The notes under the pieces are model-generated. The model was not told where the DNA came from. It was given only the letters and a program-made list of their open reading frames with translations, and searched no databases. A DNA stretch of 64,000 bases from Marinobacter sp. SS21. GTDB taxonomy: Bacteria; Pseudomonadota; Gammaproteobacteria; Pseudomonadales; Oleiphilaceae. Location: contig NZ_JAQNDA010000001.1 of the NCBI RefSeq assembly GCF_028369065.1, positions 1-64,000 on the forward strand, read 5' to 3'. The first letter of the stretch is position 1. Every line of letters starts with the position of its first letter. Shown here in pieces: positions 3,425 through 17,402 of this stretch. Both the position numbers and the translations under genes were made by a program.

Positions 3425-5263
3425 GAGGCTGTAGAAAAACGCTTTCCGAAGCCGTTTCCCACCGCCTGATTTCCAATTCTGTTTCCCAGCCATCAACTGG
3501 CTGATTTTCCGATTCCGCCACCCAAGGTGTCGAATACGGCCCTGTTTCTATTCTGGCAGCGGTATACCCACTCTGACTCGGGCACAGGCGGGGCTGCCAT
3601 GCCCTTCGTTTATGCCACTAACTGCCCGTAATTCGTTAATTTCTCTATGTTATGCACCAGGCAGTAGAGTTGCCACTGGCTCTGGACCTTTTTTCGGCCC
3701 CGCAGGCTGAAGCGGTTCAGGCCCTTGTTGGTGCCGATGTTGCCGAACACAGGTTCCACCACCGACATCCGGTGGCTGTAGATCTCCTTGCCCTTGGGGC
3801 TGTCCACCCGGCGCTTCATCCAGTCGGTATAGTCGGGGGCTCGCTTGTTCTCGATGGTGAAGGAGACTTGTCTGCCGGAACCGTTACGGTGGTCTGCTGA
3901 CGCGGGATGTTGCATACACCGGTGTTTCTTCGGACAGTGCCGGCATTGCAGTAAGCGACCCTCGAAGTGCACCCGGAGTTTGCCAGTATCCGCTTCCCGC
4001 TGGCCCCGGTAACTGAGTGATTGGCCGGATGGGCAGACACAGGTGAGCTTGACCGGATCGAACTGGAACTCGCTGGCCGGAATGACCGCTTTCCAGTCCG
4101 TGGCCGGACTGTCCTGGTGGCGCTTGCCGTACTTGGTTTTCTGCTGCGCGAACTTCGGATCGCGGCTGCGGAATTTGTTGTCCGGGATGTAGCCGTTGAT
4201 TTTCCGGTTGTGCAGGTACTTCATGTTGGCTTCGTTGGCGAAGCCGGTGTCGGCGGTGATGATGGTGTCTTGTTGGTAGATGCTGTCAGCGATGCCCAGT
4301 TTCTTGAAGCGGGTTTCGACGCTCTCCAGCACCGGTTGCAGGGTGTGGTGTTCCTGACCTTCGCCGAAGGCCTGGGCGTCGATGATGACCTGGTGTTTCT
4401 TGTCCACGGTGGCCACGCCGTTGTAGCCCTGGATCGTGCCCTTGCTGGTGGTCATCTTGGCGCTGTCGTTATCGGTGATGTTGCTCTTCACTTCCTTGCT
4501 CCGCTTCCCCCGGCCCATCCTTGGGCGGTTCGTCTTTAGGAAGCGGTCCACTTTCTGGAGGGCTTCATCCAGCGAGAGGATGGTCTGGGCCCGGCGGATG
4601 TCCCGATCCAGTTCGGCCTCGGTTTCCGCCTCGTCCCGTTCGTAGTGGGCCTTGAGGTGGTGACGGATCAAGCGCCGCAGTTTGATCCGTTTTTCCTCCA
4701 GCTCCTTAAAGCTGCCCGACCATTCCTTGCTGGCGTTGGAGGACATCTTGCAGCCGTCGATGGCGAACAGTTCGTTGCCCAGCAGGCCCTGCTCGTGGCA
4801 CACCAGCAGCACCTGTTCAAACAGCGCTTCGATGGCCTCGGCATGGCCGCTGACGAACTTGGCCAGGGTGGTGAAATGCGACACGGTATCGCAGGACAGT
4901 GCCTTGAACTGGATGTTGGTCTCGCAGCACCACTGCATCTCGCGGCTGGAGGTGATACCCCGGGAATAGGCGAACAGGATGATCTTCAGCAGGATGGCCG
5001 GATCGTAGGCCAACCGGCCGGTGTCTTCGTTGCGGTACTTGGGATGAAACACCGACAGGTCCAGCTTGTGCTCGATCAGGTAATGCACCGCATGCTCAAA
5101 GGTGCCGGGCTGGAGCTGGTCCTGGTAGTTGATCACCACCATGGCGTTCTGGTCAGGGTTGTAGGGTTTGAAACGGGGTTTGCGCTTGGCCACGTGACGA
5201 CTCCTTGTCCGTTTGCCTGATGCTATCAAAATCGGGAGGGTTTCGGGGTTTTTCTACAGCCTC
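3425..5263 (-). mobile_element. IS1182-family insertion sequence (1839 bp) inside an attC
   Basis: Perfect 16-bp terminal inverted repeats are visible: GAGGCTGTAGAAAAAC at 3425-3440 and its complement at 5248-5263. They enclose a single full-length transposase. AAC occurs on both sides of the element and may be a 3-bp target duplication, though it could also be chance. The element sits exactly within the conserved AAC of an attC core box. Confidence 0.85.
3610..5193 (-). CDS. IS1182-family DDE transposase
   Basis: The 527-residue product matches IS1182-type transposases: an N-terminal domain with FEHAVHYLIEHKLDLS and GRLAYDPAILLKIILFAYSRG, then FAIDGCKMSSNASKEW (first catalytic Asp), ITADTGFANEANM (second Asp), a cysteine-rich zinc-like segment (CVCPSG, CRHCPKKHRCMQHP) and a C-terminal SVVEPVFGNIG with the catalytic Glu. 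The start is GTG at 5193, chosen because AAGGAG lies 7 nt upstream. An in-frame TTG at 5229 is less likely. The reading frame is intact, so the element may be mobile. Confidence 0.9.
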   Translation of the reverse strand: MAKRKPRFKPYNPDQNAMVVINYQDQLQPGTFEHAVHYLIEHKLDLSVFHPKYRNEDTGRLAYDPAILLKIILFAYSRGITSSREMQWCCETNIQFKALSCDTVSHFTTLAKFVSGHAEAIEALFEQVLLVCHEQGLLGNELFAIDGCKMSSNASKEWSGSFKELEEKRIKLRRLIRHHLKAHYERDEAETEAELDRDIRRAQTILSLDEALQKVDRFLKTNRPRMGRGKRSKEVKSNITDNDSAKMTTSKGTIQGYNGVATVDKKHQVIIDAQAFGEGQEHHTLQPVLESVETRFKKLGIADSIYQQDTIITADTGFANEANMKYLHNRKINGYIPDNKFRSRDPKFAQQKTKYGKRHQDSPATDWKAVIPASEFQFDPVKLTCVCPSGQSLSYRGQREADTGKLRVHFEGRLLQCRHCPKKHRCMQHPASADHRNGSGRQVSFTIENKRAPDYTDWMKRRVDSPKGKEIYSHRMSVVEPVFGNIGTNKGLNRFSLRGRKKVQSQWQLYCLVHNIEKLTNYGQLVA

Positions 5264-5337
5264 AACGCTGAGCACAGCGGCGCCACGACAGTGGCGTCCG
5301 GCGGCCATCGGCCGCGTACTGATGCGCCTTGTTAATG
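5264..5337 (-). other. Right part of the IS-split attC (cassette A1)
   Basis: It runs from AACGCTGAGC to GTTAATG (5331-5337), with the internal inverted pairs GCGCCACGAC/GTGGCGTCC and CGGCGGCC/GGCCGCG. The 5' core box lies on the other side of the IS at 3418-3424. Confidence 0.75.
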
Positions 5338-5493
5338 GCCGGTTACCCGGCGGTTTATCCCTGGCACCCAAAGCCGAATGCCCTCTGCAATGCAGCTTGC
5401 ACCCAGCCTAGCCCATGGCGAAAGGAACCAGAACACGAAACCTAATGATTTTGCAGTGTTTTGCGGGGAGACGACTTGAACGGTGGTACACAC
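5332..5493 (-). CDS. Short conserved cassette ORF, family A copy 1
   Basis: This is a 53-codon frame from GTG at 5491-5493, with AGGGAG about 10 nt upstream, to TAA in the attC core. Its features are SPQNTAKS near residue 10, then VFWFLSPWARLGASC, and the end WVPGINRRVTGH. The frame has no stop or indel relative to family C, which differs by many substitutions. No family was recognised and no ATG start is present, so expression is uncertain. The rest of the ~215-bp cassette body holds nothing else recognisable. Confidence 0.35.
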   Translation of the reverse strand: MCTTVQVVSPQNTAKSLGFVFWFLSPWARLGASCIAEGIRLWVPGINRRVTGH

Positions 5494-5542
5494 TTGGAAG
5501 CAACTCCCTGCTTTACTGAATGAATCCTTCCGAGGTCTTGGC

Positions 5543-5620
5543 CATTAACGCTGAGCACAGCGGCGCCACGTCAGTGGCGTCCGGCAGCCATCGGCTGCGT
5601 ACTGATGCGCCTTGTTAATG
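5543..5620 (-). other. attC site of cassette B1
   Basis: Outer cores are CATTAAC (5543-5549) and GTTAATG (5614-5620). The inner palindrome differs from the A-type site in carrying GTCAGTGGCGTCC and CAGCCATCGGCTG. Confidence 0.8.
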
Positions 5621-5625
5621 GCCGG

Positions 5626-5793
5626 TTACCCGGTCGTGAATTCCGGCACCCAAACCCGAATGCCCGCTCCGATGTAGCTTGCACGAAACTAAGCCCATGG
5701 CGGGAGGAGCCAAAACACGAGCGGTAAGGGCTTCACCGTCTTTTGCGGGGAGAACGGCTGAACTGTGGAACACTTGCGAAAGCCACTCCCTGC
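5626..5793 (-). pseudogene. Short cassette ORF, family B copy 1, with internal stop
   Basis: In the same frame as families A and C the translation reads SPQKTVKP, then VFWLLPPWA, an in-frame TAG at 5689-5691, then the RVWVP block and an early stop outside the attC core. It is therefore a diverged, interrupted version of the same short frame, or evidence that the sequence is not translated. Confidence 0.3.
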
Positions 5794-5824
5794 TCTACCG
5801 ACATACTTCCCTTGGGGCTTGGGC

Positions 5825-5927
5825 CGTTAACGCCTGCATAAACGGCGGCTTTTACGTAGCGAAGCGAAGAAAAAGCCGTCCGGTGGAGGGCCATCGGCCC
5901 GGAACGTATTTGATGCACTTGTTAACT
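5825..5927 (-). other. attC site of the first 92-aa membrane-protein cassette
   Basis: Cores are CGTTAAC (5825-5831) and GTTAACT (5921-5927). The long palindromic type has GGCGGCTTTTACG and AAAAAGCCGTCC. It is essentially identical to the site at 10749-10851. Confidence 0.8.
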
Positions 5928-6200
5928 GGTTTTATGAAACGTACATAAAAACCAACAGATTAACCAATAAACCAGTGAGTACAGGGCTAATCCAAGTACA
6001 AATCCCTCCCATTGGGAGATGTATGCACCAATGTCCCTGCTATAGATAAAAAATGGCTCACCTACCCAGGAAACAGGGGCAAAATAGAGTATCTCAACGC
6101 CTAGAGGGATGAGCCCCCAAGGAACAACGTAGGCCAATGCCCTGCACATTAGCGGAAAAAGCAGTAACACGATCCAAAATTTGAATACTCGCGACTTCAT
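5922..6200 (-). CDS. Small membrane protein, cassette copy 1
   Basis: The 92-residue protein starts at MKSRVFKFW. The upstream in-frame codons read through attC DNA and were not used. Hydrophobic segments at about residues 5-22 and 62-85 predict two transmembrane helices with a PWGLIPLGVEILYFAPVSW loop between them. No family was recognised. The gene recurs at 10846-11124 with one residue changed (Val to Ala) and the same attC, so the whole cassette is duplicated. The TAA stop lies in the attC core. Confidence 0.65.
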   Translation of the reverse strand: MKSRVFKFWIVLLLFPLMCRALAYVVPWGLIPLGVEILYFAPVSWVGEPFFIYSRDIGAYISQWEGFVLGLALYSLVYWLICWFLCTFHKTS

Positions 6201-6209
6201 ACCGCTACC

Positions 6210-6287
6210 AGTTAACGCTGAGCACAGCGGCGCCACGACAGTGGCGTCCGGCGGCCATCGGCCGCGTACTGATGCGCCTTGTTAATG
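6210..6287 (-). other. attC site of cassette A2
   Basis: Cores are AGTTAAC (6210-6216) and GTTAATG (6281-6287). The interior is the same as the IS-split A1 site. Confidence 0.8.
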
Positions 6288-6443
6288 GCCGGTTACCCGG
6301 CGGTTTATCCCTGGCACCCAAAGCCGAATGCCCTCTGCAATGCAGCTTGCACCCAGCCTAGCCCATGGCGAAAGGAACCAGAACACGAAACCTAATGATT
6401 TTGCAGTGTTTTGCGGGGAGACGACTTGAACGGTGGTACACAC
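6282..6443 (-). CDS. Short conserved cassette ORF, family A copy 2
   Basis: This is a near-identical copy of the 53-codon frame at 5332-5493, with the same GTG start and the stop in the attC core. Function is unknown. Translation is inferred only from frame conservation against family C. Confidence 0.35.
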   Translation of the reverse strand: MCTTVQVVSPQNTAKSLGFVFWFLSPWARLGASCIAEGIRLWVPGINRRVTGH

Positions 6444-6492
6444 TTGGAAGCAACTCCCTGCTTTACTGAATGAATCCTTCCGAGGCCTTGGC

Positions 6493-6570
6493 CATTAACG
6501 CTGAGCACAGCGGCGCCACGACAGTGGCGTCCGGCGGCCATCGGCCGCGTACTGATGCGGCTTGTTATAA
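6493..6570 (-). other. attC site of the 6572-6814 cassette
   Basis: Cores are CATTAAC (6493-6499) and GTTATAA (6564-6570), with the A-type inner palindrome. Confidence 0.8.
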
Positions 6571-6571
6571 A

Positions 6572-6814
6572 TCATTTGATCCGGGTAAACCTGATCGGAG
6601 GGCTGTTCTTTAATGCAGCTTGATTCGGCACTTTCTCAACTTTCCAAGAGTGAGCCATTGCCCAAGATAATAACCGCTCTTCATCTATGACTTTGTACTC
6701 AAATGAATCAGGATGCGGGATGTCACTGGGAAATATTTTCGCGATGTCAGCGTAAGAAACGGTCACGTCATCTCCGCCATGCTTCTCAAGTTCAGCTTTT
6801 AACGACTCTTCCAT
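6572..6814 (-). CDS. Cassette-encoded hypothetical protein (80 aa)
   Basis: This small, acidic, soluble protein was not recognised. It has an N-terminal helix (MEESLKAELEKHGGDD) and a central KIFPSDIPHPDSFEYKV segment. The ATG at 6814 is preceded by GGAGAG about 8 nt upstream, a reasonable ribosome site. It lies between two clear attC sites in the standard minus orientation, with the stop next to the attC core. Its length is typical of single-gene cassettes. Confidence 0.65.
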   Translation of the reverse strand: MEESLKAELEKHGGDDVTVSYADIAKIFPSDIPHPDSFEYKVIDEERLLSWAMAHSWKVEKVPNQAALKNSPPIRFTRIK

Positions 6815-6831
6815 GTGTAACTCTCCCTGAT

Positions 6832-6903
6832 TTATAACGCCAGTGGTAATGGGCGCCGACGGAGCGCAGCGTAGTTGGCGTCCCGTTGACCACCTGGTTA
6901 GGA
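6832..6903 (-). other. attC site of the 6898-7179 cassette
   Basis: Cores are TTATAAC (6832-6838) and GTTAGGA (6897-6903), with GGGCGCCGAC and GTTGGCGTCCC inside as paired arms. Confidence 0.8.
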
Positions 6904-7179
6904 ATCACGATGCTCGCCCCGTTGACCGGTTTTAGCGATCTCCCCACGACATAGCCGGTAGAGAAACAATGCGACAGCTGTAGCTAGGCAAGCCCAAACA
7001 AGTGGATCCCATCGAAGGTTGGGGTACCTGACTACTGTTTCCGGACTGTCTGACAGTGGCTCGAACGAGTACACCGCAAAGACATTCATCGAAAATTCAT
7101 ATACCTGATAGGTCGCAACGACAACTGCCAGGGCCATTCCAATTCCCAGTAAGACGGCCATGACTGATTCCGTTCTCAT
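6898..7179 (-). CDS. Small membrane protein (93 aa)
   Basis: It starts at MRTESVMAVLLG; upstream codons read attC sequence and were excluded. Two hydrophobic stretches, at about residues 7-28 and 60-80, predict two transmembrane helices, with a loop containing SFEPLSDSPETVVRYPNLRWDP. No family was recognised. It is a cassette gene with its stop in the attC core. An internal ATG (MAVLLG) is an alternative start. Confidence 0.6.
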   Translation of the reverse strand: MRTESVMAVLLGIGMALAVVVATYQVYEFSMNVFAVYSFEPLSDSPETVVRYPNLRWDPLVWACLATAVALFLYRLCRGEIAKTGQRGEHRDS

Positions 7180-7185
7180 GTAATT

Positions 7186-7266
7186 TCCTAACGCCCGGCG
7201 CAGGGGCGGTGTGCGCAGCACGCCGTCCCAGTGGCCGCAGGCCACGACTGCCGCCGCTTGTTATGC
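7186..7266 (-). other. attC site of the 7261-7562 cassette
   Basis: Cores are TTCCTAAC (ending 7192) and GTTATGC (7260-7266), with inner arms GCCCGGCGCAGG and CTGCCGCCG. Confidence 0.75.
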
Positions 7267-7562
7267 GGGAATGCTGCAGCAACGCCACTTTGATTGTTTG
7301 CTATGCCAATACTACCGCAAGGGGATTGGCACAACCCATTTTCCGCCTCAGCGGCGTGACGCGGCTGAGGTTTGGCACCGAACGATGTGGCAGGGACTTT
7401 CAGAGCTGCCCAGCCGTGGACTGCAACCGTGTACACCGCCGATGCCGATATGAACCAAGTGAAACCTGACATTATTTGATTGTTGTTTTCACTGCAATTC
7501 TGATATTGCTTTGCCAGTGTGCCGCTACTTTTTAGGCAGCGATGGCTCATTAAGCCTTTGCC
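7267..7562 (-). other. Cassette body without a convincing gene
   Basis: The only long minus-strand frame (from MSGFTWFISASAVYTVAV, near 7472) runs straight through the attC and beyond, which cassette genes here do not do. The frame that would stop in the attC core has internal stops. It may be a decayed gene or a non-coding cassette. Confidence 0.4.
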
Positions 7563-7665
7563 GCATAACGCCTGCGTAAACGGCGGCTTTTGCGCAGCGA
7601 AGCGGAGAAAAAGCCGTCCGGTGGAGGCCCATCGGGCCGGAACGAATTTGACGCACTTGTTAGTG
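7563..7665 (-). other. attC site of cassette C1
   Basis: Cores are GCATAAC (7563-7569) and GTTAGTG (7659-7665). The long type has GGCGGCTTTTGCGC and AAAAAGCCGTCC. Confidence 0.8.
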
Positions 7666-7821
7666 GCCGGTCACCCGGCGCTTCATCCCTGGCACCCAAA
7701 CTTGAATGCCCTTTGCGATGCAGCTTGCAACCAACTTAGCCCATGGCGCGAGGAACCAGAACACGGAGCTCTCAGATTTTGCAGTGTTTTGCGGGGAGAA
7801 GAATTGGACCGAAGTGATAAT
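7660..7821 (-). CDS. Short conserved cassette ORF, family C copy 1
   Basis: The frame is collinear with family A: SPQNTAKS, VFWFLAPWAKLVASC, WVPGMKRRVTGH, then TAA in the attC core. No ATG, GTG or TTG precedes the GTG inside VFWF, so the start is unclear. An ATT codon lies at 7819-7821, and the boundary given is where similarity to family A would begin translation. Function is unknown. Confidence 0.3.
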   Translation of the reverse strand: MITSVQFFSPQNTAKSESSVFWFLAPWAKLVASCIAKGIQVWVPGMKRRVTGH

Positions 7822-7870
7822 TCGCGAGCAACTCCCTGCTCTACTGCTTAAATCCTTCCGAAGCCTTGGC

Positions 7871-7948
7871 CATTAACGCTGAGCACAGCGGCGCCACGTC
7901 AGTGGCGTCCGGCAGCCATCGGCTGCGTACTGATGCGCCTTGTTAATG
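7871..7948 (-). other. attC site of cassette B2
   Basis: Cores are CATTAAC (7871-7877) and GTTAATG (7942-7948). It is identical in type to the B1 site. Confidence 0.8.
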
Positions 7949-7953
7949 GCCGG

Positions 7954-8121
7954 TTACCCGGTCGTGAATTCCGGCACCCAAACCCGAATGCCCGCTCCGA
8001 TGTAGCTTGCACGAAGCTAAGCCCATGGCGGGAGGAGCCAAAACACGAGCGGTAAGGGCTTCACCGTCTTTTGCGGGGAGAACGGCTGAACTGTGGAACA
8101 CTTGCGAAAGCCACTCCCTGC
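7954..8121 (-). pseudogene. Short cassette ORF, family B copy 2, with internal stop
   Basis: This copy of B1 has the same internal TAG. Only a few bases differ, for example CTT for TTT after the TAG. The stop shared by all B copies means it predates their spread. Confidence 0.3.
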
Positions 8122-8152
8122 TCTACCGACGTACTTCCCTTGGGGCTTGGGC

Positions 8153-8230
8153 CGTTAACGCTGAGCACAGCGGCGCCACGACAGTGGCGTCCGGCGGCCA
8201 TCGGCCGCGTACTGATGCGCCTTGTTAATG
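8153..8230 (-). other. attC site of cassette A3
   Basis: Cores are CGTTAAC (8153-8159) and GTTAATG (8224-8230), with the A-type interior. Confidence 0.8.
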
Positions 8231-8386
8231 GCCGGTTACCCGGCGGTTTATCCCTGGCACCCAAAGCCGAATGCCCTCTGCAATGCAGCTTGCACCCAGC
8301 CTAGCCCATGGCGAAAGGAACCAGAACACGAAACCTAATGATTTTGCAGTGTTTTGCGGGGAGACGACTTGAACGGTGGTACACAC
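8225..8386 (-). CDS. Short conserved cassette ORF, family A copy 3
   Basis: This is the third copy of the 53-codon frame (GTG start at 8384-8386, stop in the attC core), identical in layout to copies 1 and 2. Function is unknown. Confidence 0.35.
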   Translation of the reverse strand: MCTTVQVVSPQNTAKSLGFVFWFLSPWARLGASCIAEGIRLWVPGINRRVTGH

Positions 8387-8435
8387 TTGGAAGCAACTCC
8401 CTGCTTTACTGAATGAATCCTTCCGAGGTCTTGGC

Positions 8436-8513
8436 CATTAACGCAGAGCACAGCGGCGCGAGCTGGCGAGCGTCCGGCAACCGCAGGTTGCGAACTGGTG
8501 CGTTTGGTTATGC
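8436..8513 (-). other. attC site of the 8508-8897 cassette
   Basis: Cores are CATTAAC (8436-8442) and GTTATGC (8507-8513). Inner arms are GCGAGCTGGCGAGCGTCC and CAACCGCAGGTTG. Confidence 0.8.
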
Positions 8514-8897
8514 ATTTACCCGTTCTCCACTGACCGCTCCGGCTTGCACTAACGCAGATAAGATTCGTGAGTTCCGTTTCCTTGTAGTGATGAACCATCC
8601 CAGCTGTAAAGAAAGAAGAATTACCATTCCGAACGATAGAATCGACATATTTAGACGATGAAGCGATGCCAATTCATAACCGGCATATGTCTTGCGTAAT
8701 ACGGTCTCTTGATTCCACAGCTCAATGGCACCAAAAACGTCCAGCCCGAACAAGCTTGCATAGTGAAAGGCCAAATATAAGTTGTATACAGCACCGAAAC
8801 CGAAGAATAAAATCAGAAAAGCAACCGTACATTTTAAGAACATGTACATTCTTGGTGTTGGGCCGACTACGGCCTTGATGTCCTTATCACTTAGCAC
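8508..8897 (-). CDS. Small membrane protein (129 aa)
   Basis: The start is GTG at 8897, supported by AGGAGAG close upstream. Two hydrophobic helices are predicted at about residues 20-42 (CTVAFLILFFGFGAVYNLYL) and 86-105 (ILSFGMVILLSLQLGWFI), with a polar loop between them and a basic C-terminus. No family was recognised. The stop lies in the attC core. The gene is less GC-rich than chromosomal neighbours, fitting an acquired cassette. Confidence 0.65.
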   Translation of the reverse strand: MLSDKDIKAVVGPTPRMYMFLKCTVAFLILFFGFGAVYNLYLAFHYASLFGLDVFGAIELWNQETVLRKTYAGYELASLHRLNMSILSFGMVILLSLQLGWFITTRKRNSRILSALVQAGAVSGERVNA

Positions 8898-8919
8898 AGC
8901 CTCTCCTCATGTGCACTCT

Positions 8920-9003
8920 GCATAACGCTTGCAGCATGCGCGCCCATGGAATGGAGCCTAAGGCGCAATGTAGTGGGCGTCGCCGTGCCTGCACTGGTTA
9001 TAC
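8920..9003 (-). other. attC site of the 9008-9289 cassette
   Basis: Cores are GCATAAC (8920-8926) and GTTATAC (8997-9003). It shares the GCGCGCCCATG and GGGCGTCGCC arms with the site at 12462-12545. Confidence 0.8.
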
Positions 9004-9007
9004 GGTC

Positions 9008-9289
9008 TCACAGCAACCCTTTTGTCCCGGGCCAAGCTCGACCTGCGGGCAACCTTCTTTCAAACAGTTTTTTATTCACCGCCCCGTATAGTCGCGAATA
9101 GCGGATGGCTAGCCTGATCCGATTTTGACGAGCTACATACATCGATGGCGGCCTATCCCATCCCCAACTCATGCGCCCTGAGACTTTCGCGTTTTGGTAC
9201 TCCAGCACTATAGCCCGCGTCAGTGCGCTCTTTAGCTCCTTCCGGCTCATGATACCAATAGGCTTTCTAGGCTTCCGAGAGTGATTCAT
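9008..9289 (-). CDS. Basic cassette-encoded hypothetical protein (93 aa)
   Basis: The protein is strongly basic (NHSRKPRKP at the start; KKLFERRLPAGR near the end) and has no membrane segment. The high Arg/Lys content could suit nucleic-acid binding, but no motif supports that and I do not recognise a family. The ATG at 9289 follows the cassette boundary, and the TGA stop is 5 nt from the attC core at 8997-9003. Confidence 0.6.
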   Translation of the reverse strand: MNHSRKPRKPIGIMSRKELKSALTRAIVLEYQNAKVSGRMSWGWDRPPSMYVARQNRIRLAIRYSRLYGAVNKKLFERRLPAGRAWPGTKGLL

Positions 9290-9295
9290 GTTTAC

Positions 9296-9378
9296 GTATA
9301 ACGCTGCCAGCAGAGGCCGCCGGGGCTTTTAGGGGCGAAGCCCCGTCCCGGCGGTCCTGCTGACTGGCCTTGTTATGG
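9296..9378 (-). other. attC site of the 9373-9640 cassette
   Basis: Cores are GTATAAC (9296-9302) and GTTATGG (9372-9378). The palindrome is strong, with GGCCGCCGGGGCTTTT and GAAGCCCCGTCCCGGCGG. Confidence 0.8.
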
Positions 9379-9397
9379 CGGCGCCAGCAGAGACTTG

Positions 9398-9580
9398 CTA
9401 CGAAGCCACCAGCCGCACCACCATGAGTTCAATTCTGCGCGGATATACCCGAGGCACGGACCAACCGCACGCCATTGTGGCACCGAGCGAAAGCACGATG
9501 CCTGAATTTACCGCAAAACTACTTGGTGGAGCCACGCTGATGAAAAGGCTAATAAATGTGCAGATGATGAAGGTTGGCAC
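9398..9580 (-). CDS. Possible small hydrophobic cassette protein (60 aa)
   Basis: This minus-strand frame from GTG at 9580 to TAG at 9398 starts with a hydrophobic run (PTFIICTFISLFISV) that could be a membrane helix or signal. AAGGGAAT lies immediately upstream, at rather short spacing. Unlike neighbours, the stop is 20 nt short of the attC core. It is the only plausible gene in this cassette body (9379-9640). Confidence 0.35.
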   Translation of the reverse strand: MPTFIICTFISLFISVAPPSSFAVNSGIVLSLGATMACGWSVPRVYPRRIELMVVRLVAS

Positions 9581-9640
9581 ATTCCCTTGCCGCTACTGAC
9601 TCCGATATTTCCGCGCCCTACCCACTAAACATGAGCGCGC

Positions 9641-9743
9641 CCATAACGCCTGCGTAAACGGCGGCTTTTGCGCAGCGAAGCGGAGAAAAAGCCGTCCGGT
9701 GGAGGCCCATCGGGCCGGAACGAATTTGACGCACTTGTTAGTG
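9641..9743 (-). other. attC site of cassette C2
   Basis: Cores are CCATAAC (9641-9647) and GTTAGTG (9737-9743), identical in type to C1. Confidence 0.8.
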
Positions 9744-9899
9744 GCCGGTCACCCGGCGCTTCATCCCTGGCACCCAAACTTGAATGCCCTTTGCGATGCA
9801 GCTTGCAACCAACTTAGCCCATGGCGCGAGGAACCAGAACACGGAGCTCTCAGATTTTGCAGTGTTTTGCGGGGAAAAGAATTGGACCGAAGTGATAAT
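9738..9899 (-). CDS. Short conserved cassette ORF, family C copy 2
   Basis: This is a near-identical copy of C1. A one-base difference in the G-rich stretch near 9877 (GGGGAAAAG against GGGGAGAAG) is the only change noticed. The start is uncertain, as for C1. Confidence 0.3.
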   Translation of the reverse strand: MITSVQFFSPQNTAKSESSVFWFLAPWAKLVASCIAKGIQVWVPGMKRRVTGH

Positions 9900-9948
9900 T
9901 CGCGAGCAACTCCCTGCTCTACTGCTTAAATCCTTCCGAAGCCTTGGC

Positions 9949-10053
9949 CATTAACGCCAAAATTCAGCGGCGGCCTTTGCGTAGCGAAGCGGAGAAAAGG
10001 CCGTCCGGTGGAGGCCCTTCAGGGCCGGAACGAACTGGAATGACTGGTTATGT
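9949..10053 (-). other. attC site of the 10048-10428 cassette
   Basis: Cores are CATTAAC (9949-9955) and GTTATGT (10047-10053). The long type has GGCGGCCTTTGCG and AAAAGGCCGTCC. Confidence 0.8.
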
Positions 10054-10428
10054 AGCACCCCGGTTTCGTGGATTGTGATGAGAAATTACGGCACCACACC
10101 ATTTCTTTGTGGTTTTGCGATCCTCAAGACCAGAATCGTACTCAAGGTCGTAGGATGGAGATGTGAGCATCTCTTCCCGAATATCCTCGTATTCTTCTTC
10201 AGTAATTTCGAAAGGTTTCCAGTAACAACCACCTCCCATTCCTTGATCAGCGCCACCAGAAAGCAGCTCCTCCTTCAAAATATGGAAAGGGGGAAACTGT
10301 TTCGTGCATGAGACGAGCAACGCCAGACTTGGCGAATAACGCAGGAGAAAATCGTCAAAATTAACGATTTCCCACCTGCCGTCGGCACTACCCATAGCGG
10401 GTAAAATTTTTATCTTAATCTGTCTCAT
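10048..10428 (-). CDS. Cassette-encoded hypothetical protein (126 aa)
   Basis: This soluble protein with mixed charge was not recognised. The N-terminus (MRQIKIKILPAM) looks like a beta strand, and there is an acidic middle (FEITEEEYEDIREEM) and a GGGADQGMGGGC-like glycine-rich turn region. The ATG at 10428 lies close to the cassette boundary. The stop lies within the attC core. Confidence 0.65.
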   Translation of the reverse strand: MRQIKIKILPAMGSADGRWEIVNFDDFLLRYSPSLALLVSCTKQFPPFHILKEELLSGGADQGMGGGCYWKPFEITEEEYEDIREEMLTSPSYDLEYDSGLEDRKTTKKWCGAVISHHNPRNRGAT

Positions 10429-10440
10429 GACTTCAGCTAC

Positions 10441-10543
10441 ACATAACGCCTGCGTAAACGGCGGCTTTTGCGCAGCGAAGCGGAGAAAAAGCCGTCCGGT
10501 GGAGGCCCATCGGGCCGGAACGAATTTGACGCACTTGTTAGTG
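10441..10543 (-). other. attC site of cassette C3
   Basis: Cores are ACATAAC (10441-10447) and GTTAGTG (10537-10543), identical in type to C1 and C2. Confidence 0.8.
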
Positions 10544-10699
10544 GCCGGTCACCCGGCGCTTCATCCCTGGCACCCAAACTTGAATGCCCTTTGCGATGCA
10601 GCTTGCAACCAACTTAGCCCATGGCGCGAGGAACCAGAACACGGAGCTCTCAGATTTTGCAGTGTTTTGCGGGGAAAAGAATTGGACCGAAGTGATAAT
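10538..10699 (-). CDS. Short conserved cassette ORF, family C copy 3
   Basis: This is the third copy of the family C frame, matching C2 including its one-base variant. Function is unknown and the start unclear. Confidence 0.3.
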   Translation of the reverse strand: MITSVQFFSPQNTAKSESSVFWFLAPWAKLVASCIAKGIQVWVPGMKRRVTGH

Positions 10700-10748
10700 T
10701 CGCGAGCAACTCCCTGCTCTACTGCTTAAATCCTTCCGAAGCCTTGGC

Positions 10749-10851
10749 CATTAACGCCTGCATAAACGGCGGCTTTTACGTAGCGAAGCGAAGAAAAAGC
10801 CGTCCGGTGGAGGGCCATCGGCCCGGAACGTATTTGATGCACTTGTTAACT
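10749..10851 (-). other. attC site of the second 92-aa membrane-protein cassette
   Basis: Cores are CATTAAC (10749-10755) and GTTAACT (10845-10851). The interior matches 5825-5927. Confidence 0.8.
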
Positions 10852-11124
10852 GGTTTTATGAAACGTACATAAAAACCAACAGATTAACCAATAAACCAGT
10901 GAGTACAGGGCTAATCCAAGTACAAATCCCTCCCATTGGGAGATGTATGCACCAATGTCCCTGCTATAGATAAAAAATGGCTCACCTACCCAGGAAACAG
11001 GGGCAAAATAGAGTATCTCAACGCCTAGAGGGATGAGCCCCCAAGGAACAGCGTAGGCCAATGCCCTGCACATTAGCGGAAAAAGCAGTAACACGATCCA
11101 AAATTTGAATACTCGCGACTTCAT
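10846..11124 (-). CDS. Small membrane protein, cassette copy 2
   Basis: This duplicate of the gene at 5922-6200 has 92 residues and two predicted membrane helices. The only difference noticed is GCG for GTA-type coding in the ALAYAVPWG segment (Ala for Val). The attC on its 3' side is also duplicated, but the flanking cassettes differ, so the copy moved as a cassette and not by block duplication. Confidence 0.65.
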   Translation of the reverse strand: MKSRVFKFWIVLLLFPLMCRALAYAVPWGLIPLGVEILYFAPVSWVGEPFFIYSRDIGAYISQWEGFVLGLALYSLVYWLICWFLCTFHKTS

Positions 11125-11133
11125 ACCGCTACC

Positions 11134-11218
11134 AGTTAACGCTAGCAACAGGGGCGCAGGCGCGTTAGCGACTGCGTCCCAGCGACCGCAGGGAGCGAAC
11201 TGCTTGCCCTTGTTATGG
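11134..11218 (-). other. attC site of the 11213-11541 cassette
   Basis: Cores are AGTTAAC (11134-11140) and GTTATGG (11212-11218). Inner arms include GGGGCGCAGGCGCG and GACTGCGTCCC. Confidence 0.75.
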
Positions 11219-11541
11219 CCGCAATGGTTGATGATGAACAACGCCGCGCTGCCGCAGCCACAGCGGAGGCCACACTTGCCAAGTGCGATGGTTTAGCGCA
11301 CAGAGCCGTGAATTGCCGCCTGACCGACTGAGTGGCACTGAGAACAGCGCGATGCATGACAAAATTCCCTCTTTGTTTGAACAGCGCCACGAAGAACTAG
11401 GCGCTGAACTTGATGCCCGGTGTTACCCCCTGAGCGGCATACCACACAATGCGAATATGCCAAATTGAACCACGTTTTCGCCGGACTAGAAACTCGAATT
11501 ACACGCCGAACTTGCTACCCAAAAGTTCAAAAGCTTTTGCG
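11213..11541 (-). pseudogene. Decayed cassette gene
   Basis: On the minus strand one frame starts with ATG next to the cassette boundary (MAQKLLNFWVASSACNSSF), hits TAG, continues, hits TAA, and then reads on to TAA in the attC core, ending in WPPLWLRQRGVVHHQPLRP. Start and stop positions fit a cassette gene with two internal stops. The short serine/cysteine-rich style recalls DUF1010-type cassette proteins, but that link is only an impression. Confidence 0.35.
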
Positions 11542-11619
11542 CCATAACGCTGAGCACAGCGGCGCCACGACAGTGGCGTCCGGCGGACATCGGCCGCGTA
11601 CTGATGCGCCTTGTTAATG
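11542..11619 (-). other. attC site of cassette A4
   Basis: Cores are CCATAAC (11542-11548) and GTTAATG (11613-11619). It is A-type with one change (GGCGGACATC). Confidence 0.8.
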
Positions 11620-11775
11620 GCCGGTTACCCGGCGGTTTATCCCTGGCACCCAAAGCCGAATGCCCTTTGCAATGCAGCTTGCACCCAGCCTAGCCCATGG
11701 CGAAAGGAACCAGAACACGAAACCTAATGATTTTTCAGTGTCTTGCGGGGAGACGACTTGAACGGTGGTACACAC
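11614..11775 (-). CDS. Short conserved cassette ORF, family A copy 4
   Basis: This is the most diverged A copy. Three base changes near 11733-11742 alter two residues (SPQDTEKS for SPQNTAKS) without breaking the frame. GTG start at 11773-11775, stop in the attC core. Function is unknown. Confidence 0.35.
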   Translation of the reverse strand: MCTTVQVVSPQDTEKSLGFVFWFLSPWARLGASCIAKGIRLWVPGINRRVTGH

Positions 11776-11824
11776 TTGGAAGCAACTCCCTGCTTTACTG
11801 AATGAATCCTTCCGAGGCCTTGGC

Positions 11825-11925
11825 CATTAACGCGGAGCACAGCGGCGACCTTGGAGTGGCGCCGAAGGAGCCACGTAAAGGGCGTCCGGCGGCCACCGGC
11901 CGCGTACTGATGCGATTTGTTAGAT
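11825..11925 (-). other. attC site of cassette D
   Basis: Cores are CATTAAC (11825-11831) and GTTAGAT (11919-11925). It is an A-like site enlarged by a 23-bp insertion-like segment (GAGTGGCGCCGAAGG region). Confidence 0.75.
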
Positions 11926-12179
11926 GCCGGTTACCCGGCACTTTATTGTGGCACCCAACCCTGAATGCCTACTCCCGATACGTTGCACCAAGCTGACCCA
12001 TGGCGCCAGGAACCAGAACACCGAATGCGCGAAAACATCTTATGGTTGCGCCGGATTGCCCCACAACCTGAACCCCGAGTTACCAGCCAAAACCGATGAC
12101 TGATTGGAGGCTGTGTTTTGCCCGAAACCAACTGCAAAACCGAGCCCGAGCACCAAGCCCAAAAGCGACGGAGCCAGGC
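11920..12179 (-). pseudogene. Cassette body related to families A-C (family D)
   Basis: The 3' half (11920-12039) keeps VFWFLAPWVSLV and the terminal RVTG before a stop in the attC core, but a one-base shift scrambles the middle and a TAA lies upstream of DVFAHSVFWF. The remaining part (12040-12179) is unrelated to A-C and has no clear gene. Confidence 0.3.
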
Positions 12180-12257
12180 ATTTAACGCTGAGCACAGCGG
12201 CGCCACGTCAGTGGCGTCCGGCAGCCATCGGCTGCGTACTGATGCGCCTTGTTAATG
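12180..12257 (-). other. attC site of cassette B3
   Basis: Cores are ATTTAAC (12180-12186) and GTTAATG (12251-12257), of B type. Confidence 0.8.
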
Positions 12258-12262
12258 GCCGG

Positions 12263-12430
12263 TTACCCGGTCGTGAATTCCGGCACCCAAACCCGAATGC
12301 CCGCTCCGATGTAGCTTGCACGAAGCTAAGCCCATGGCGGGAGGAGCCAAAACACGAGCGCTAAGGGCTTCACCGTCTTTTGCGGGGAGAACGGCTGAAC
12401 TGTGGAACACTTGCGAAAGCCACTCCCTGC
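12263..12430 (-). pseudogene. Short cassette ORF, family B copy 3, with internal stop
   Basis: This is the third B copy. It shares the internal TAG of B1 and B2 and differs at a few bases, such as CGCTAAGG for CGGTAAGG near 12359. Confidence 0.3.
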
Positions 12431-12461
12431 TCTACCGACGTACTTCCCTTGGGGCTTGGGC

Positions 12462-12545
12462 CGTTAACGCCAGCAGCATGCGCGCCCATGAAATGGAGCC
12501 GAAGGCGCAATGTAATGGGCGTCGCCGTGCCTGCATTGGTTAGGC
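12462..12545 (-). other. attC site of the DUF4279 cassette
   Basis: Cores are CGTTAAC (12462-12468) and GTTAGGC (12539-12545, a perfect consensus core). The interior is related to the site at 8920-9003. Confidence 0.8.
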
Positions 12546-12548
12546 CAT

Positions 12549-13016
12549 TTAGCAGCAACTCGATTCATCGCCTTGAATCTCCGGTTCGTGATACAAATCC
12601 CACCACACCTCTACACCCGCATCGGCCAATCCGCGCATCTGATCTGGCGAGATAGTAGGACCACCTTGAGTGTAACCATACATAATCGCCACAGACATAT
12701 CACAACCACGATCTCGAAGACCTTCCAAAATCCCAGCGTCCCTGAGCGGCCCAGCAAGCAGAATTTCAAGGTGACGTCGGCAATCCCTGGATTCGCTAAG
12801 CTCTTTAGTCGAATAAAACCATCCGTGCCGCGGATAGTATCTATAGTTCACATCGGTGCGTTTCGTTCTCTGCTCACCTTTTTCGAAACTACGAGTTGGC
12901 TCACAACCTATTAGAGCGGAGATAGCATCAGGGTCCACTCTTTCGGACGTGATCCGCAGAGTGGCGTAAGTGCCTGTGCAAGTCGCGTAATGATCGTCAA
13001 TTTCGTGCGATTGCAT
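12549..13016 (-). CDS. DUF4279 domain protein
   Basis: The 155-residue protein has the features of DUF4279: an N-terminal YATLRITSERVDPDAISALIGCEPTRSFEKGE block, split here into strand and helix, a WFYSTKEL segment near residue 66, and a C-terminal half ending in AGVEVWWDLYHE. The role of the domain is unknown; it is common in accessory regions. It is the cassette nearest nrdB, hence in the position an integron promoter would read first, but no integrase or attI is recognisable beyond it. GTTAGGC on the minus strand at 13031-13037 marks its 5' boundary. Confidence 0.75.
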   Translation of the reverse strand: MQSHEIDDHYATCTGTYATLRITSERVDPDAISALIGCEPTRSFEKGEQRTKRTDVNYRYYPRHGWFYSTKELSESRDCRRHLEILLAGPLRDAGILEGLRDRGCDMSVAIMYGYTQGGPTISPDQMRGLADAGVEVWWDLYHEPEIQGDESSCC

Positions 13017-13037
13017 TGGATCTCCTATGGGCCTAAC

Positions 13038-13313
13038 AGCTAATTATACGAACGCGTTCGTATATCCAGCATTCGTATAACTCCATTTGTAACCCTCGAC
13101 CGGATTCTTATAAATCCCTTAAAAACAAAAAGATAGAAAAAACCGAGCAAGGCTCGTTCGGAGTTATACGCCCTCGCCCCCAAGACCATCCTGGGTCAAG
13201 AAGGGCGTATAACTCCGCTAGTGAATTCCACTACCCTCAAATCTATCAGAGAGTTACGGAGTTTGCCCGCCGGGGTTCGGGAGTTTTGCGAATGCGTTCG
13301 TATAACTCCGCAC
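13038..13313. repeat. Cluster of 11-bp repeats between the cassette array and nrdB
   Basis: The motif CGTATAACTCC occurs at 13074, 13206 and 13299, and inverted at 13160-13170. The inner pair forms a perfect 16-bp inverted repeat (13159-13174 with 13202-13217). A perfect 20-bp palindrome, with centre ACGCGT, spans 13045-13064. There is no gene. The region could hold an attI-like site, the nrdB terminator or a protein-binding array. Confidence 0.6.
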
Positions 13314-14645: not shown

Positions 14646-17402
14646 TTACTGACAAGCCTCACAGTCCGGGTTGTCGATGGAGCATACCTGCGGCGCCGGT
14701 GCGGCCTGCACCGGGGCGGATTTCTCGGCGCCGGTGGCGCCCAGGGAGCGCAGGTAGTAGGTGGTTTTCAGGCCGCGTTCCCAGGCCAGCTGGTACAAGG
14801 CATCCAGCTTCTTGCCGGAGGGCTCGGCCATGTACAGGTTGAGGCTCTGGGCCTGGTCCAGCCATTTCTGGCGGCGGGCGGCGGCTTCCACCAGCCAGCG
14901 GGCGTCCATCTCGAAGGCGGTGGCGTAGCGGGCCTTGATTTCGGCCGGGATGCGTTCGATCTGCTGCACCGAGCCGTCGAAGTACTTGAGGTCGTTGACC
15001 ATGACGTTGTCCCACAGGCCTTCGGCCTTGAGGTCGGCCACCAAAGCCGGGTTGACCACGGTGAACTCGCCGGACAGGTTCGATTTGACGAACAGGTTCT
15101 GGTACGCCGGCTCAATGGACTGAGACACGCCGACGATGTTGGAGATGGTCGCCGTGGGCGCAATCGCCATGACGTTGGAGTTACGCATGCCGTGCCTGGC
15201 CACCAGCTCCCGCACCGGCGCCCAGTCCAGTCTGGCCTCGGTGTTGAGGGACAGGTCGCCGTCCTGGCGGGCTTCCGCCAGCAGCTTGATGGAGTCGATG
15301 GGCAGGATGCCCTGCTCCCACAGCGAGCCCTGGTAGGTTGGGTAGGCGCCGCGCTCGGCCGCCAGCAGGGCGGAGGCGCGGATGGCGAAGTAGCTGATCT
15401 GCTCCATCGCCAGATCGGCGAATTCCACCGCCTCGACGCTGGAATAGGCCAGTTTGAGCTGGTACAGGGCGTCCTGGAAGCCCATCAGGCCCATGCCCAC
15501 CGGGCGGTGACGCAGGTTGGACTCGCGGGCCTGGGGCACGGCGTAGAAGTTGATGTCGATGACGTTGTCCAGCATCCGCACCGCGGTGGTGATGGTGCGC
15601 TCAAGCCGCTGTACATCCAGCTCGCCGTCCTTGATGTGGGCGGCCAGGTTAACCGAGCCCAGGTTGCACACCGCGATTTCCTCGGCACTGGTGTTGAGGG
15701 TGATCTCGGTACACAGGTTGGAGGAATGCACCACGCCCTGGTGCTGCTGGGGCGAACGCAGGTTGCAGGGGTCCTTGAAGGTGATCCAGGGATGGCCGGT
15801 CTCGAACAGCACCGTCAGCATCTTGCGCCACAGCTGCTTGGCGGGAATCTTCTTGTGCAGCGGCAGCTCGCCGCGCGCGGCCTTGGCCTCGTACTCCTCA
15901 TAACGGCTGCGGAAGGCGTTGCCGTAGAGGTCGTGCAGGTCGGGGGTGTCGCTGGGGGAGAACAGGGTCCAGTCCTGGTCCCGGCGCATGCGTTCGATCA
16001 GCAGGTCCGGTACCCAGTTGGCGGTGTTCATGTCGTGGGTGCGGCGGCGCTCGTCGCCGGTGTTCTTGCGCAGCTCCAGGAATTCCTCGATGTCCAGGTG
16101 CCAGCTCTCCAGGTAGGCACAGACCGCGCCTTTGCGCTTGCCGCCCTGGTTCACCGCCACGGCGGTGTCGTTGACCACCTTGAGGAACGGCACCACGCCC
16201 TGGCTCTGGCCGTTGGTGCCCTTGATGTGGGAGCCCAGGGCTCGCACCGGGGTCCAGTCGTTGCCCAGGCCACCGGCCCATTTCGACAGCAGGGCGTTGT
16301 CCTTGATGGCGCCGTAGATGTCTTCCAGATCATCCCCCACGGTGGTGAGGTAGCAGGACGACAGCTGGCTGTGGCGGGTGCCGCTGTTGAACAGGGTCGG
16401 AGTGGAGGCCATGTAGTCGAAGGACGACAGCAGGTTGTAGAACTCGATGGCGCGGCCGTTGGGGTCGTCTTCCCGCAGCGCCAGGCCCATGGCCACCCGC
16501 ATGAAGAACACCTGGGGCAGCTCCAGGCGATCACCGTTCCAGTGCAGGAAGTAGCGGTCGTACAGGGTCTGCAGGCCGAGGAAGCCGAACTGGTGGTCCC
16601 GTTCCGGCTGCAGGGCGGCGCCCAGGCGTTCCAGGTCAAAGCCCGCCAGCGCCTCGTCCAGCAGCTCGTAACGGATACCGGCATGGATGAAGGTTGTCAG
16701 GGCCTGGGGATAGACGCTGGCCAGGGCCTCCTGCAAGGGCAATTCGAGGGCGCCGGCGGTCTCGATGCGCAGCTGCTCCAACAGCAGGCGGGCGGTGACC
16801 TGGCTGTAGTCCGGGGCCTGCTCGATGCGGCCACGGGCGGTCATCACCAGCGCCGCCAGCACATCGGATTCGGGGATGCCGTCGTACAGCCCCCGCAGGG
16901 CTTCTTCCACCACCGAGCCGGCGTCGACGCCGTCCAGTCCGTCGCAGGCCTGCTCTACCTGGTATTTCATCAGGCCCAGATCCAGTGGCGCCACCTTGCC
17001 GTTGGCCTGCTTCACCGTCAGGCTGGGGTGAGCCTCCACCGGGGCTTCCCGGCTGGCCCGCTCCTGGGCATGAGCGTCCCGGTAGAGTACATAAGCCCGC
17101 GCCACCTTCTGCTCTTCCGCCCGCATCAGCGCCAGCTCGACGTGATCCTGAATGTCTTCAATATGAACCTTGCCACCGGCTTTCAGGCGACGGCTGATGG
17201 CCTGCACCACCTGGTCGCTGACCCGCGCCACACTGTCGTGGATGCGGGCGGACCCGGCGGCCTCGGCCCCTTCGACGGCAAGGAAGGCCTTGGTGACGGC
17301 AACGTTGATCTTGGCGGCGTCGAAGCTGACCAGGGTACCGTTGCGTTTAATGACCTGCAGGGAATCGGTGTTGAGCTGGGGATCGGCCGTGGCGGTGGAC
17401 AT
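14646..17402 (-). CDS. nrdA: Ribonucleoside-diphosphate reductase, alpha subunit (class Ia)
   Basis: The 918-residue protein is the catalytic R1 subunit reducing ribonucleoside diphosphates. An N-terminal ATP-cone (VIKRNGTLVSFDAAKI, about residues 15-105) and a second cone-like region (about 120-215) give allosteric control. The barrel carries LSSCYL (redox Cys), NLCTEI (radical Cys), a PTATISNIVG loop, and a C-terminal CEACQ with shuttle cysteines. The start at 17402 has AGGAGG 6 nt upstream. A cobalamin riboswitch lies 180 nt upstream in the same orientation, so expression should fall when B12 is plentiful. Two cones match the longer Pseudomonas-type NrdA. Confidence 0.96.
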   Translation of the reverse strand: MSTATADPQLNTDSLQVIKRNGTLVSFDAAKINVAVTKAFLAVEGAEAAGSARIHDSVARVSDQVVQAISRRLKAGGKVHIEDIQDHVELALMRAEEQKVARAYVLYRDAHAQERASREAPVEAHPSLTVKQANGKVAPLDLGLMKYQVEQACDGLDGVDAGSVVEEALRGLYDGIPESDVLAALVMTARGRIEQAPDYSQVTARLLLEQLRIETAGALELPLQEALASVYPQALTTFIHAGIRYELLDEALAGFDLERLGAALQPERDHQFGFLGLQTLYDRYFLHWNGDRLELPQVFFMRVAMGLALREDDPNGRAIEFYNLLSSFDYMASTPTLFNSGTRHSQLSSCYLTTVGDDLEDIYGAIKDNALLSKWAGGLGNDWTPVRALGSHIKGTNGQSQGVVPFLKVVNDTAVAVNQGGKRKGAVCAYLESWHLDIEEFLELRKNTGDERRRTHDMNTANWVPDLLIERMRRDQDWTLFSPSDTPDLHDLYGNAFRSRYEEYEAKAARGELPLHKKIPAKQLWRKMLTVLFETGHPWITFKDPCNLRSPQQHQGVVHSSNLCTEITLNTSAEEIAVCNLGSVNLAAHIKDGELDVQRLERTITTAVRMLDNVIDINFYAVPQARESNLRHRPVGMGLMGFQDALYQLKLAYSSVEAVEFADLAMEQISYFAIRASALLAAERGAYPTYQGSLWEQGILPIDSIKLLAEARQDGDLSLNTEARLDWAPVRELVARHGMRNSNVMAIAPTATISNIVGVSQSIEPAYQNLFVKSNLSGEFTVVNPALVADLKAEGLWDNVMVNDLKYFDGSVQQIERIPAEIKARYATAFEMDARWLVEAAARRQKWLDQAQSLNLYMAEPSGKKLDALYQLAWERGLKTTYYLRSLGATGAEKSAPVQAAPAPQVCSIDNPDCEACQ

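Follow-up and report, generated by a model that had tools for sequence, protein, structure and literature searches.

Integron integrases can excise, move and re-insert DNA segments that end at an attC recombination site, and work on integron cassettes mostly seeks the proteins they encode. Cassettes without an open reading frame (ORF-less or gene-less cassettes) and a cassette-borne small RNA (sRNA) are nonetheless known kinds. Gene-less cassettes of Vibrionaceae superintegrons are described as often acting as promoters (PMC11014356), gene-less cassettes with promoter activity are also reported from an oral metagenome (PMC6557892), and sRNA-Xcc1 is given as a non-coding RNA on a widespread Xanthomonas integron cassette (Chen et al. 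2011, via PMC12444791 and PMC8876359), regulated by HrpG/HrpX, situated beside symE and oriented against the array (PMC12444791). Here we analyse a window of 64,000 nucleotides (nt), the whole stretch C1:1-64000 on one contig of a 28-contig Marinobacter genome, in which eleven repeated cassette bodies lie in an integron array. They belong to a non-coding family with block-wise sequence conservation, which recurs in many copies and genomes and whose end at attC is constant, and the reading we favour, although we give it slightly less than an even chance, is that they are a cassette-borne non-coding element whose product would be an RNA with regulatory action.

Like the gene-less Vibrionaceae and oral cassettes, which can reportedly regulate their neighbours, the bodies have an attC but no gene and are spread in arrays. 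They differ from these in forming one homologous family with several length classes, found in at least 65 of 163 Marinobacteraceae genomes, and from the promoter-bearing ones in showing no excess of sigma-70-like sites and in being known here from sequence alone. With sRNA-Xcc1 they share the character of non-coding cargo on a widespread integron cassette, so that an RNA-carrying cassette has a precedent, but they are oriented with the array, contain no gene and have a putative transcript. Nor are they simply attC sites (59-base elements): each body ends at the attC R'' box and has the attC core in common at its 5' end, but the DNA of the body lies apart from the attC sites that flank it, and class-1 bodies that resemble one another occur with different attC types. 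No description of this cassette family was found in Rfam or in the open-licence literature, and as far as searched it has not been described before.

The original prediction, made from the DNA letters of this region, had recognised eleven bodies (four A, three B, three C and one D) scattered through the array with their own attC. This holds: all eleven are on the minus strand, which is the cassette strand, between 5336 and 12462, and every one is followed by an attC (Table 1). The attC array takes up most of the first 13 kb of the window, with 21 attC matches from 5546 to 12465 and a further attC at ~5263; between the latter and an attI-like site we count 22 cassettes, 11 of which are the repeated bodies. 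As is characteristic of integron gene cassettes, each body is a unit between recombination cores with attC at the 3' end of its cassette strand, and the genome holds an integron integrase, encoded by intI on contig C4 (C4:100917-101858; 425.8 bits against a cut-off of 265), the sole integrase above the family cut-off. Identity among the four A copies is 99-100%, and they do not adjoin one another in the array, as movement by an integrase would lead one to expect; relative to A, identity is 82% for C and, over 183 nt, 76-77% for B. The claim that D is a frameshifted copy had to be given up, as D is a full-length member of a second class that has only its last ~100 nt in common with A, B and C. 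Contig C4 of this genome has a second D copy, which differs from the first at a single aligned base.

Table 1. Repeated cassette bodies and associated features in the window
Feature	Position	Strand	Basis or remark
Class 1 body A1	5336-5544	-	100% to A over 209 nt; attC at lower coordinates (~5263), abutted by an insertion sequence
Class 1 body B1	5619-5825	-	nhmmer 179.6 bits; TAG and 1-nt deletion in frame
attC ending copy A2	6213-6284	-	attC match
53-codon frame of copy A2 (GTG ... TAA), judged no gene	6282-6443	-	
Class 1 body A2, reference copy	6286-6494	-	sequence comparison
Predicted long class-1 hairpin, copy A2	6397-6477	-	GATT/AATC, GCAGT/ACTGC, GC-GGGAG/CTCCCCGC
Class 1 body C1	7664-7872	-	sequence comparison
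Class 1 body B2	7947-8153	-	sequence comparison
Class 1 body A3	8229-8437	-	sequence comparison
Class 1 body C2	9742-9950	-	sequence comparison
Class 1 body C3	10542-10750	-	sequence comparison
Class 1 body A4	11618-11826	-	sequence comparison
Class 2 body D, ~272 nt	11919-12186	-	only 3' ~100 nt common with class 1
Class 1 body B3	12256-12462	-	sequence comparison
attI-like sequence, array start (inferred)	13034-13054	-	comparison with intI-adjacent sequences

The last ~100 nt of the bodies recur behind other 5' parts, and by sequence similarity the bodies are members of a broader ORF-less cassette family, about 205 to 350 nt long, in which we distinguish at least four length classes: class 1 of about 209 nt (A, B and C), class 2 of about 272 nt (D), class 3 of about 320 nt and class 4 of about 350 nt. 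A class-4 profile aligned over its length with some class-3 members (about 42 bits) and partially with D (16.5 bits, E 8.5e-4). Blocks read by eye from the alignments recur between classes, namely GGCCTTGG..CCAAGGCC in classes 3 and 4, GGGGC..TCCG in classes 2-4, GTTC.GGTTC..T..CCGCAT or GTTCTGGTTCCT..CGCCAT, and GGGAG.GGGCATTC..GTGCC. From class to class the spacing of these common blocks differs by 1-nt indels, a pattern that a single reading frame running across the classes could not accommodate. Similar class-1 bodies occur with differing attC types, mostly one of 72 nt, the others being about 54-97 nt long, and body and attC can therefore re-assort. In one locus (L033:786-896) a class-2-like 3' core stands between the end of an apparent protein-coding frame, judged by eye, and the attC, which suggests that the 3' core is a separable module; no second core behind a gene was seen among the 25 partial matches listed, many of which are truncated where the stretch ends.

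The family is widespread in Marinobacter, which excludes the possibility, raised by the original prediction, of a local duplication without homologues elsewhere. Searching 163 Marinobacteraceae genomes at E <= 0.001, with some matches partial and no more than four candidates per genome scored for class 1, we found at least 41 genomes matched by the class-1 query, 31 by class 3 and 47 by class 4, counts that overlap as the queries cross-match each other's common parts; their union is the at least 65 genomes given above. Three of them (G077, G101 and G161) are supported by matches of less than 60 nt, and for two (G040 and G080) the match given is a fragment with no recognised attC. An integrase match (E <= 1e-60) was present in 57 of the 65 genomes with bodies and in 56 of the other 98, so that bodies are commoner in genomes with intI (57 of 113) than in those without (8 of 50; odds ratio 5.3, p 3e-5). 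Across 11 array stretches with 67 bodies in total, strand is uniform within each stretch.

A pattern scan of GTDB returned 45 stretches, comprising 32 from Marinobacter, five other contigs with class 2 and eight with the short pattern only. The class-2 profile thereby places members outside Marinobacter in Zobellella endophytica, Halomonas llamarensis, Halomonas sp. 25-S5 and a Porticoccaceae metagenome-assembled genome (MAG), the fifth contig coming from a MAG labelled Aminicenantes that may be misbinned. Across the order, with no more than two candidates per genome scored, class 2 was found in at least 8 of 390 genomes, two of the eight being 28-29-nt matches near E 1e-4 that are possibly due to chance, and a 22-nt class-4 motif gave one match in 369 genomes of the taxonomic class with up to two mismatches allowed. 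There were no bodies in plasmids searched with classes 1-3, in phages searched with class 2 only, or in viral contigs searched with one pattern.

Parts of class-1 bodies also occur in chromosomes without a recognised attC (L040:1496-1575, L045:1489-1562, L085:1526-1601, L072:1529-1602 and L039:1479-1649). The pieces in L040, L045 and L085 lie, by eye, 5' of a gene starting MKKILLAAS, and those in L040 and L045 are 3' of what we take, from the end of its frame, to be a cysteine-synthase-like gene.

The short reading frame of the bodies is not a gene. The original prediction had drawn attention to a frame kept open between A and C, lacking an ATG, interrupted in B by a single TAG and ending at a TAA inside the attC core, a set of observations that is confirmed in part. 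The open frame exists and is free of stops, with 24 of 53 codons differing between A and C (8 of them silently). When A is given an equal number of random substitutions, however, it stays stop-free in 30% of trials, so its openness is not above chance. An ATG is indeed absent from A, B and C, but A has a start-like GTG (6443, minus strand); the site at which many homologues have ATG behind GGGAG reads GTG in A, ATT in C and AAG in B. The TAG of B is present, but a 1-nt deletion near the 3' end also shifts the frame, and the terminal TAA is supplied by the attC R'' box itself (..TTAAC / ..CTAAC) and is thus no evidence for a gene.

We collected homologues by DNA search of the family and aligned 37 distinct class-1 bodies, of which 36 were counted and one partial body left out. 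The frame is open with a start in 16 of them, open without a start in 5 and broken by a stop or frameshift in 15; in-frame stops are absent from 22, compared to 20.4 expected under random substitutions on the consensus, and start codons are not conserved. The ratio of non-synonymous to synonymous rates (omega), for which a comparison of both strands had been proposed, is 0.61 in the frame, no lower than the 0.58 of a meaningless opposite-strand frame, and over the first 16 codons it is 0.42 compared to 0.44. Substitutions counted on the tree show no 3-periodicity in any of the four classes (10+13+16+18 windows, lowest p 0.11), in none of the four sets does the longest open frame reach the 95th percentile of shuffles, no frame matching that of class 1 was found in the other classes, and the class-1 frame, tested on L023, has no Pfam match. 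One result points the other way and counts against a non-coding body: in class 1 the column entropy at codon position 3 is slightly raised and exceeds that at the other two positions (permutation p about 0.02), a signal that disappears with tree-based substitution counting. The class-1 copies are not independent, and the p-values of these frame tests are rough.

A tiny cassette-encoded protein of about 53 amino acids with loose initiation could thus point to the ATG or GTG frame open in 16 of 36 copies, to the omega values (0.61, and 0.42 in the first part) and to the entropy at position 3. We nevertheless regard it as very improbable and reject it, as 15 broken and 5 startless frames are what is expected without selection, omega is equally low on the opposite-strand frame, tree-based periodicity is lacking and the other classes have no matching frame. 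Of the two readings that the original prediction had left side by side, it is therefore the non-coding one that these frames bear out, and the cassettes, having no protein gene, are ORF-less. By the rule that the original prediction had itself laid down for rejecting a protein, namely homologues with frame-breaking indels and no codon-position bias, the protein reading falls.

The bodies are constrained in sequence. Invariant columns number 57, 54, 101 and 46 in classes 1-4, compared to 24.2, 8.6, 36.9 and 14.6 expected at uniform rates. That the bodies are decaying remains of old cassettes, spread by hitch-hiking and now under no selection, would agree with the partial chromosomal copies without a recognised attC (L039, L040, L045, L072 and L085) and with the absence of covariation described below, but it is hard to reconcile with this excess of invariant columns in all four classes and with the conserved folding of class 4, and we consider it highly unlikely.

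RNA structure is possible, with the best support coming from class 4 and from the inner helix of a long hairpin predicted for class 1. When consensus folding energies were compared with those of 30 column-shuffled alignments, classes 1-4 reached z-scores of -1.9, -2.4, -3.2 and -6.2 on the cassette strand and -1.6, -0.9, -3.0 and -5.2 on the opposite strand; on either strand the conserved folding potential is strong for class 4 and moderate for class 1. In class-1 Watson-Crick stems, transitions that make G-U pairs number 24 on the cassette strand and 7 on the opposite strand, and the resulting G-U fraction of 0.77, compared to a column-shuffled mean of 0.57, was reached by none of 100 shuffled alignments. 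In the inner helix of the class-1 hairpin (36 sequences), six of the eight departures still form a G-U pair on the cassette strand, and over all 16 pairs the kept departures are 16, 15 as G-U and one as U-A. In a cross-clade test, weak for class 2 as its enlarged set is contaminated by class 3, predicted pairing lay above the mean slid control in 16 of 16 tests and below the largest slid control in one. The description of these cassettes as 'structured' is thus supported only in part, by folding scores and by the class-1 G-U asymmetry, but not by significant covariation, and the cross-clade test does not favour the cassette strand.

Several results weigh against a folded RNA. Our own R-scape-like implementation, with significance set at E below 0.05, found no significant covarying pair in the four class sets or in three enlarged sets (weak for class 2 owing to the same contamination), the lowest E being 0.1 for a pair that is not complementary. 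Folding on the opposite strand is nearly as strong in classes 1, 3 and 4, so that DNA hairpins would explain the signal too. The G-U asymmetry of classes 2-4 was reached by 36 of 98, 52 of 100 and 36 of 98 shuffles; broken departures in the class-1 hairpin, mostly in the outer helices, outnumber kept ones by 32 to 16; and the class-1 alifold structure, which includes the inner helix, is 97.6% paired compared to 97.5% in shuffles. Compensatory changes between clades surpassed the highest slid control in no more than 3 of the 16 tests, each of them on the opposite strand, and the cross-clade test therefore mainly reflects sequence conservation. Single sequences (six per class) fold little better than dinucleotide shuffles, and those of class 1 not at all, with z-scores for classes 1-4 of 0.4, -0.5, -1.1 and -1.7 on the cassette strand and 0.1, -0.3, -0.7 and -1.9 on the opposite strand, and the common 3' core by itself does not outdo shuffles on the cassette strand (z -0.7, with -1.9 on the opposite strand), in a comparison that includes the contaminated class-2 set. 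Finally, no Rfam family matches a body, whether in the window at gathering score, in L023, L051, L037 and L012 at up to E 1 or in six class-4 loci at up to E 10. The Rfam matches all lay outside bodies and consisted of group II introns, a cobalamin riboswitch and two hits below threshold, and a known RNA family was accordingly rejected as an identity for the bodies.

The bodies could instead work as DNA, as a promoter, terminator or other cis signal that drives or silences neighbouring cassettes. They lie upstream of other same-strand cassettes, and PMC11014356 reports sense-strand promoter activity in most of 29 gene-less Vibrio cassettes and states in a section heading that promoters of gene-less cassettes are not identifiable in silico. 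A consensus scan of the array found 24 terminator-like sites compared to a shuffle mean of 10.0 (sd 3.2); twelve of them are one repeated attC stem on the opposite strand, and two lie in B copies on the cassette strand. The corresponding scan for sigma-70-like sites gave no promoter excess in the array, with one site compared to a mean of 4.1 in shuffles, and the conserved blocks span the whole ~200-350 nt, beyond what a promoter needs. On balance we think a DNA-level signal rather unlikely.

Less probable to us is that the bodies are selfish gene-less cassettes, of no benefit to the cell, whose sequence aids excision or insertion by IntI. In most copies the ends of class-1 bodies, GTTAATGGCC and GGCCATTAAC, add about 3-4 bp to the complementary stretch of the attC core, several identical copies stand in one array and folding potential exists on both strands, all of which would suit such a role. 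Yet blocks distant from attC are conserved between classes, and class-1 bodies are found with several attC types, so they do not depend on one attC.

Under the regulatory RNA reading, a non-coding segment of about 205-350 nt ending at attC would be excised, moved and re-inserted by the integron integrase, a mobility that would lead to identical copies scattered in an array and to spread among genomes. RNA would be read from the cassette strand, either by read-through from upstream cassettes or from a promoter of its own, would fold partly into hairpins, and might serve as a trans-acting sRNA or act in cis on the transcript of the cassettes next to it; transcription, RNA action, regulation and movement by IntI are all steps that we infer. 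A broader proposal, which we put forward with more reserve, is that these bodies may represent a non-coding RNA superfamily, so far unrecognised, that normally resides in integrons, built of blocks into length classes, equipped with its own attC, filling half of this array and exchanged among Marinobacter, Halomonas and relatives. If true, integrons would be a standing platform for sharing regulatory RNAs besides protein genes. A conserved, mobile, gene-free family in dozens of species would mean that non-coding cargo can be selected and shared via integrons, and it provides a defined sequence set for testing such cargo; should the RNA reading fail, the same family offers a clean test of the promoter or selfish explanations for gene-less cassettes.

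The array of the window opens at the attI-like sequence CGTTCGTATAATTARCTGTTA without intI alongside, nrdB adjoining it instead, and no intI adjoining the array was found within the window. On contig C4 (L086:3223-3243) a counterpart with a single difference in 21 bases stands between intI and the first cassette, and exact matches occur in 17 of 267 loci examined, several of which overlap, adjoining intI in L084 and L088. Some genomes may thus have additional array start sites without an integrase. At 3610-5229 the array is interrupted by a gene for a 539-amino-acid DDE transposase (DDE_Tnp_1_6 / DUF772), part of an insertion sequence at 3610-5262. In both arrays of the genome (the window and L086 from ~4436 onward) and in M. 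zhanjiangensis (end of L115), an attC has this same insertion sequence end (GAGGCTGTAGAAA..) at its 3' end, and the element is possibly an attC-targeting insertion sequence.

Other genes in the array region, all on the minus strand, encode a glyoxalase-fold protein (777-1142), a YoeB/ParE-type toxin with a Phd/YefM-type antitoxin (1211-1713) and a DUF4279 protein (12549-13016). The cobalamin riboswitch (RF00174; 17570-17764, minus strand) lies upstream of a gene for 918 amino acids at 14646-17402, which looks to us like nrdA. Group II intron domains (RF01999 and RF02001) occur near a cassette array in L037:2466-2582 and at the far end of the window, at 62450-62620.

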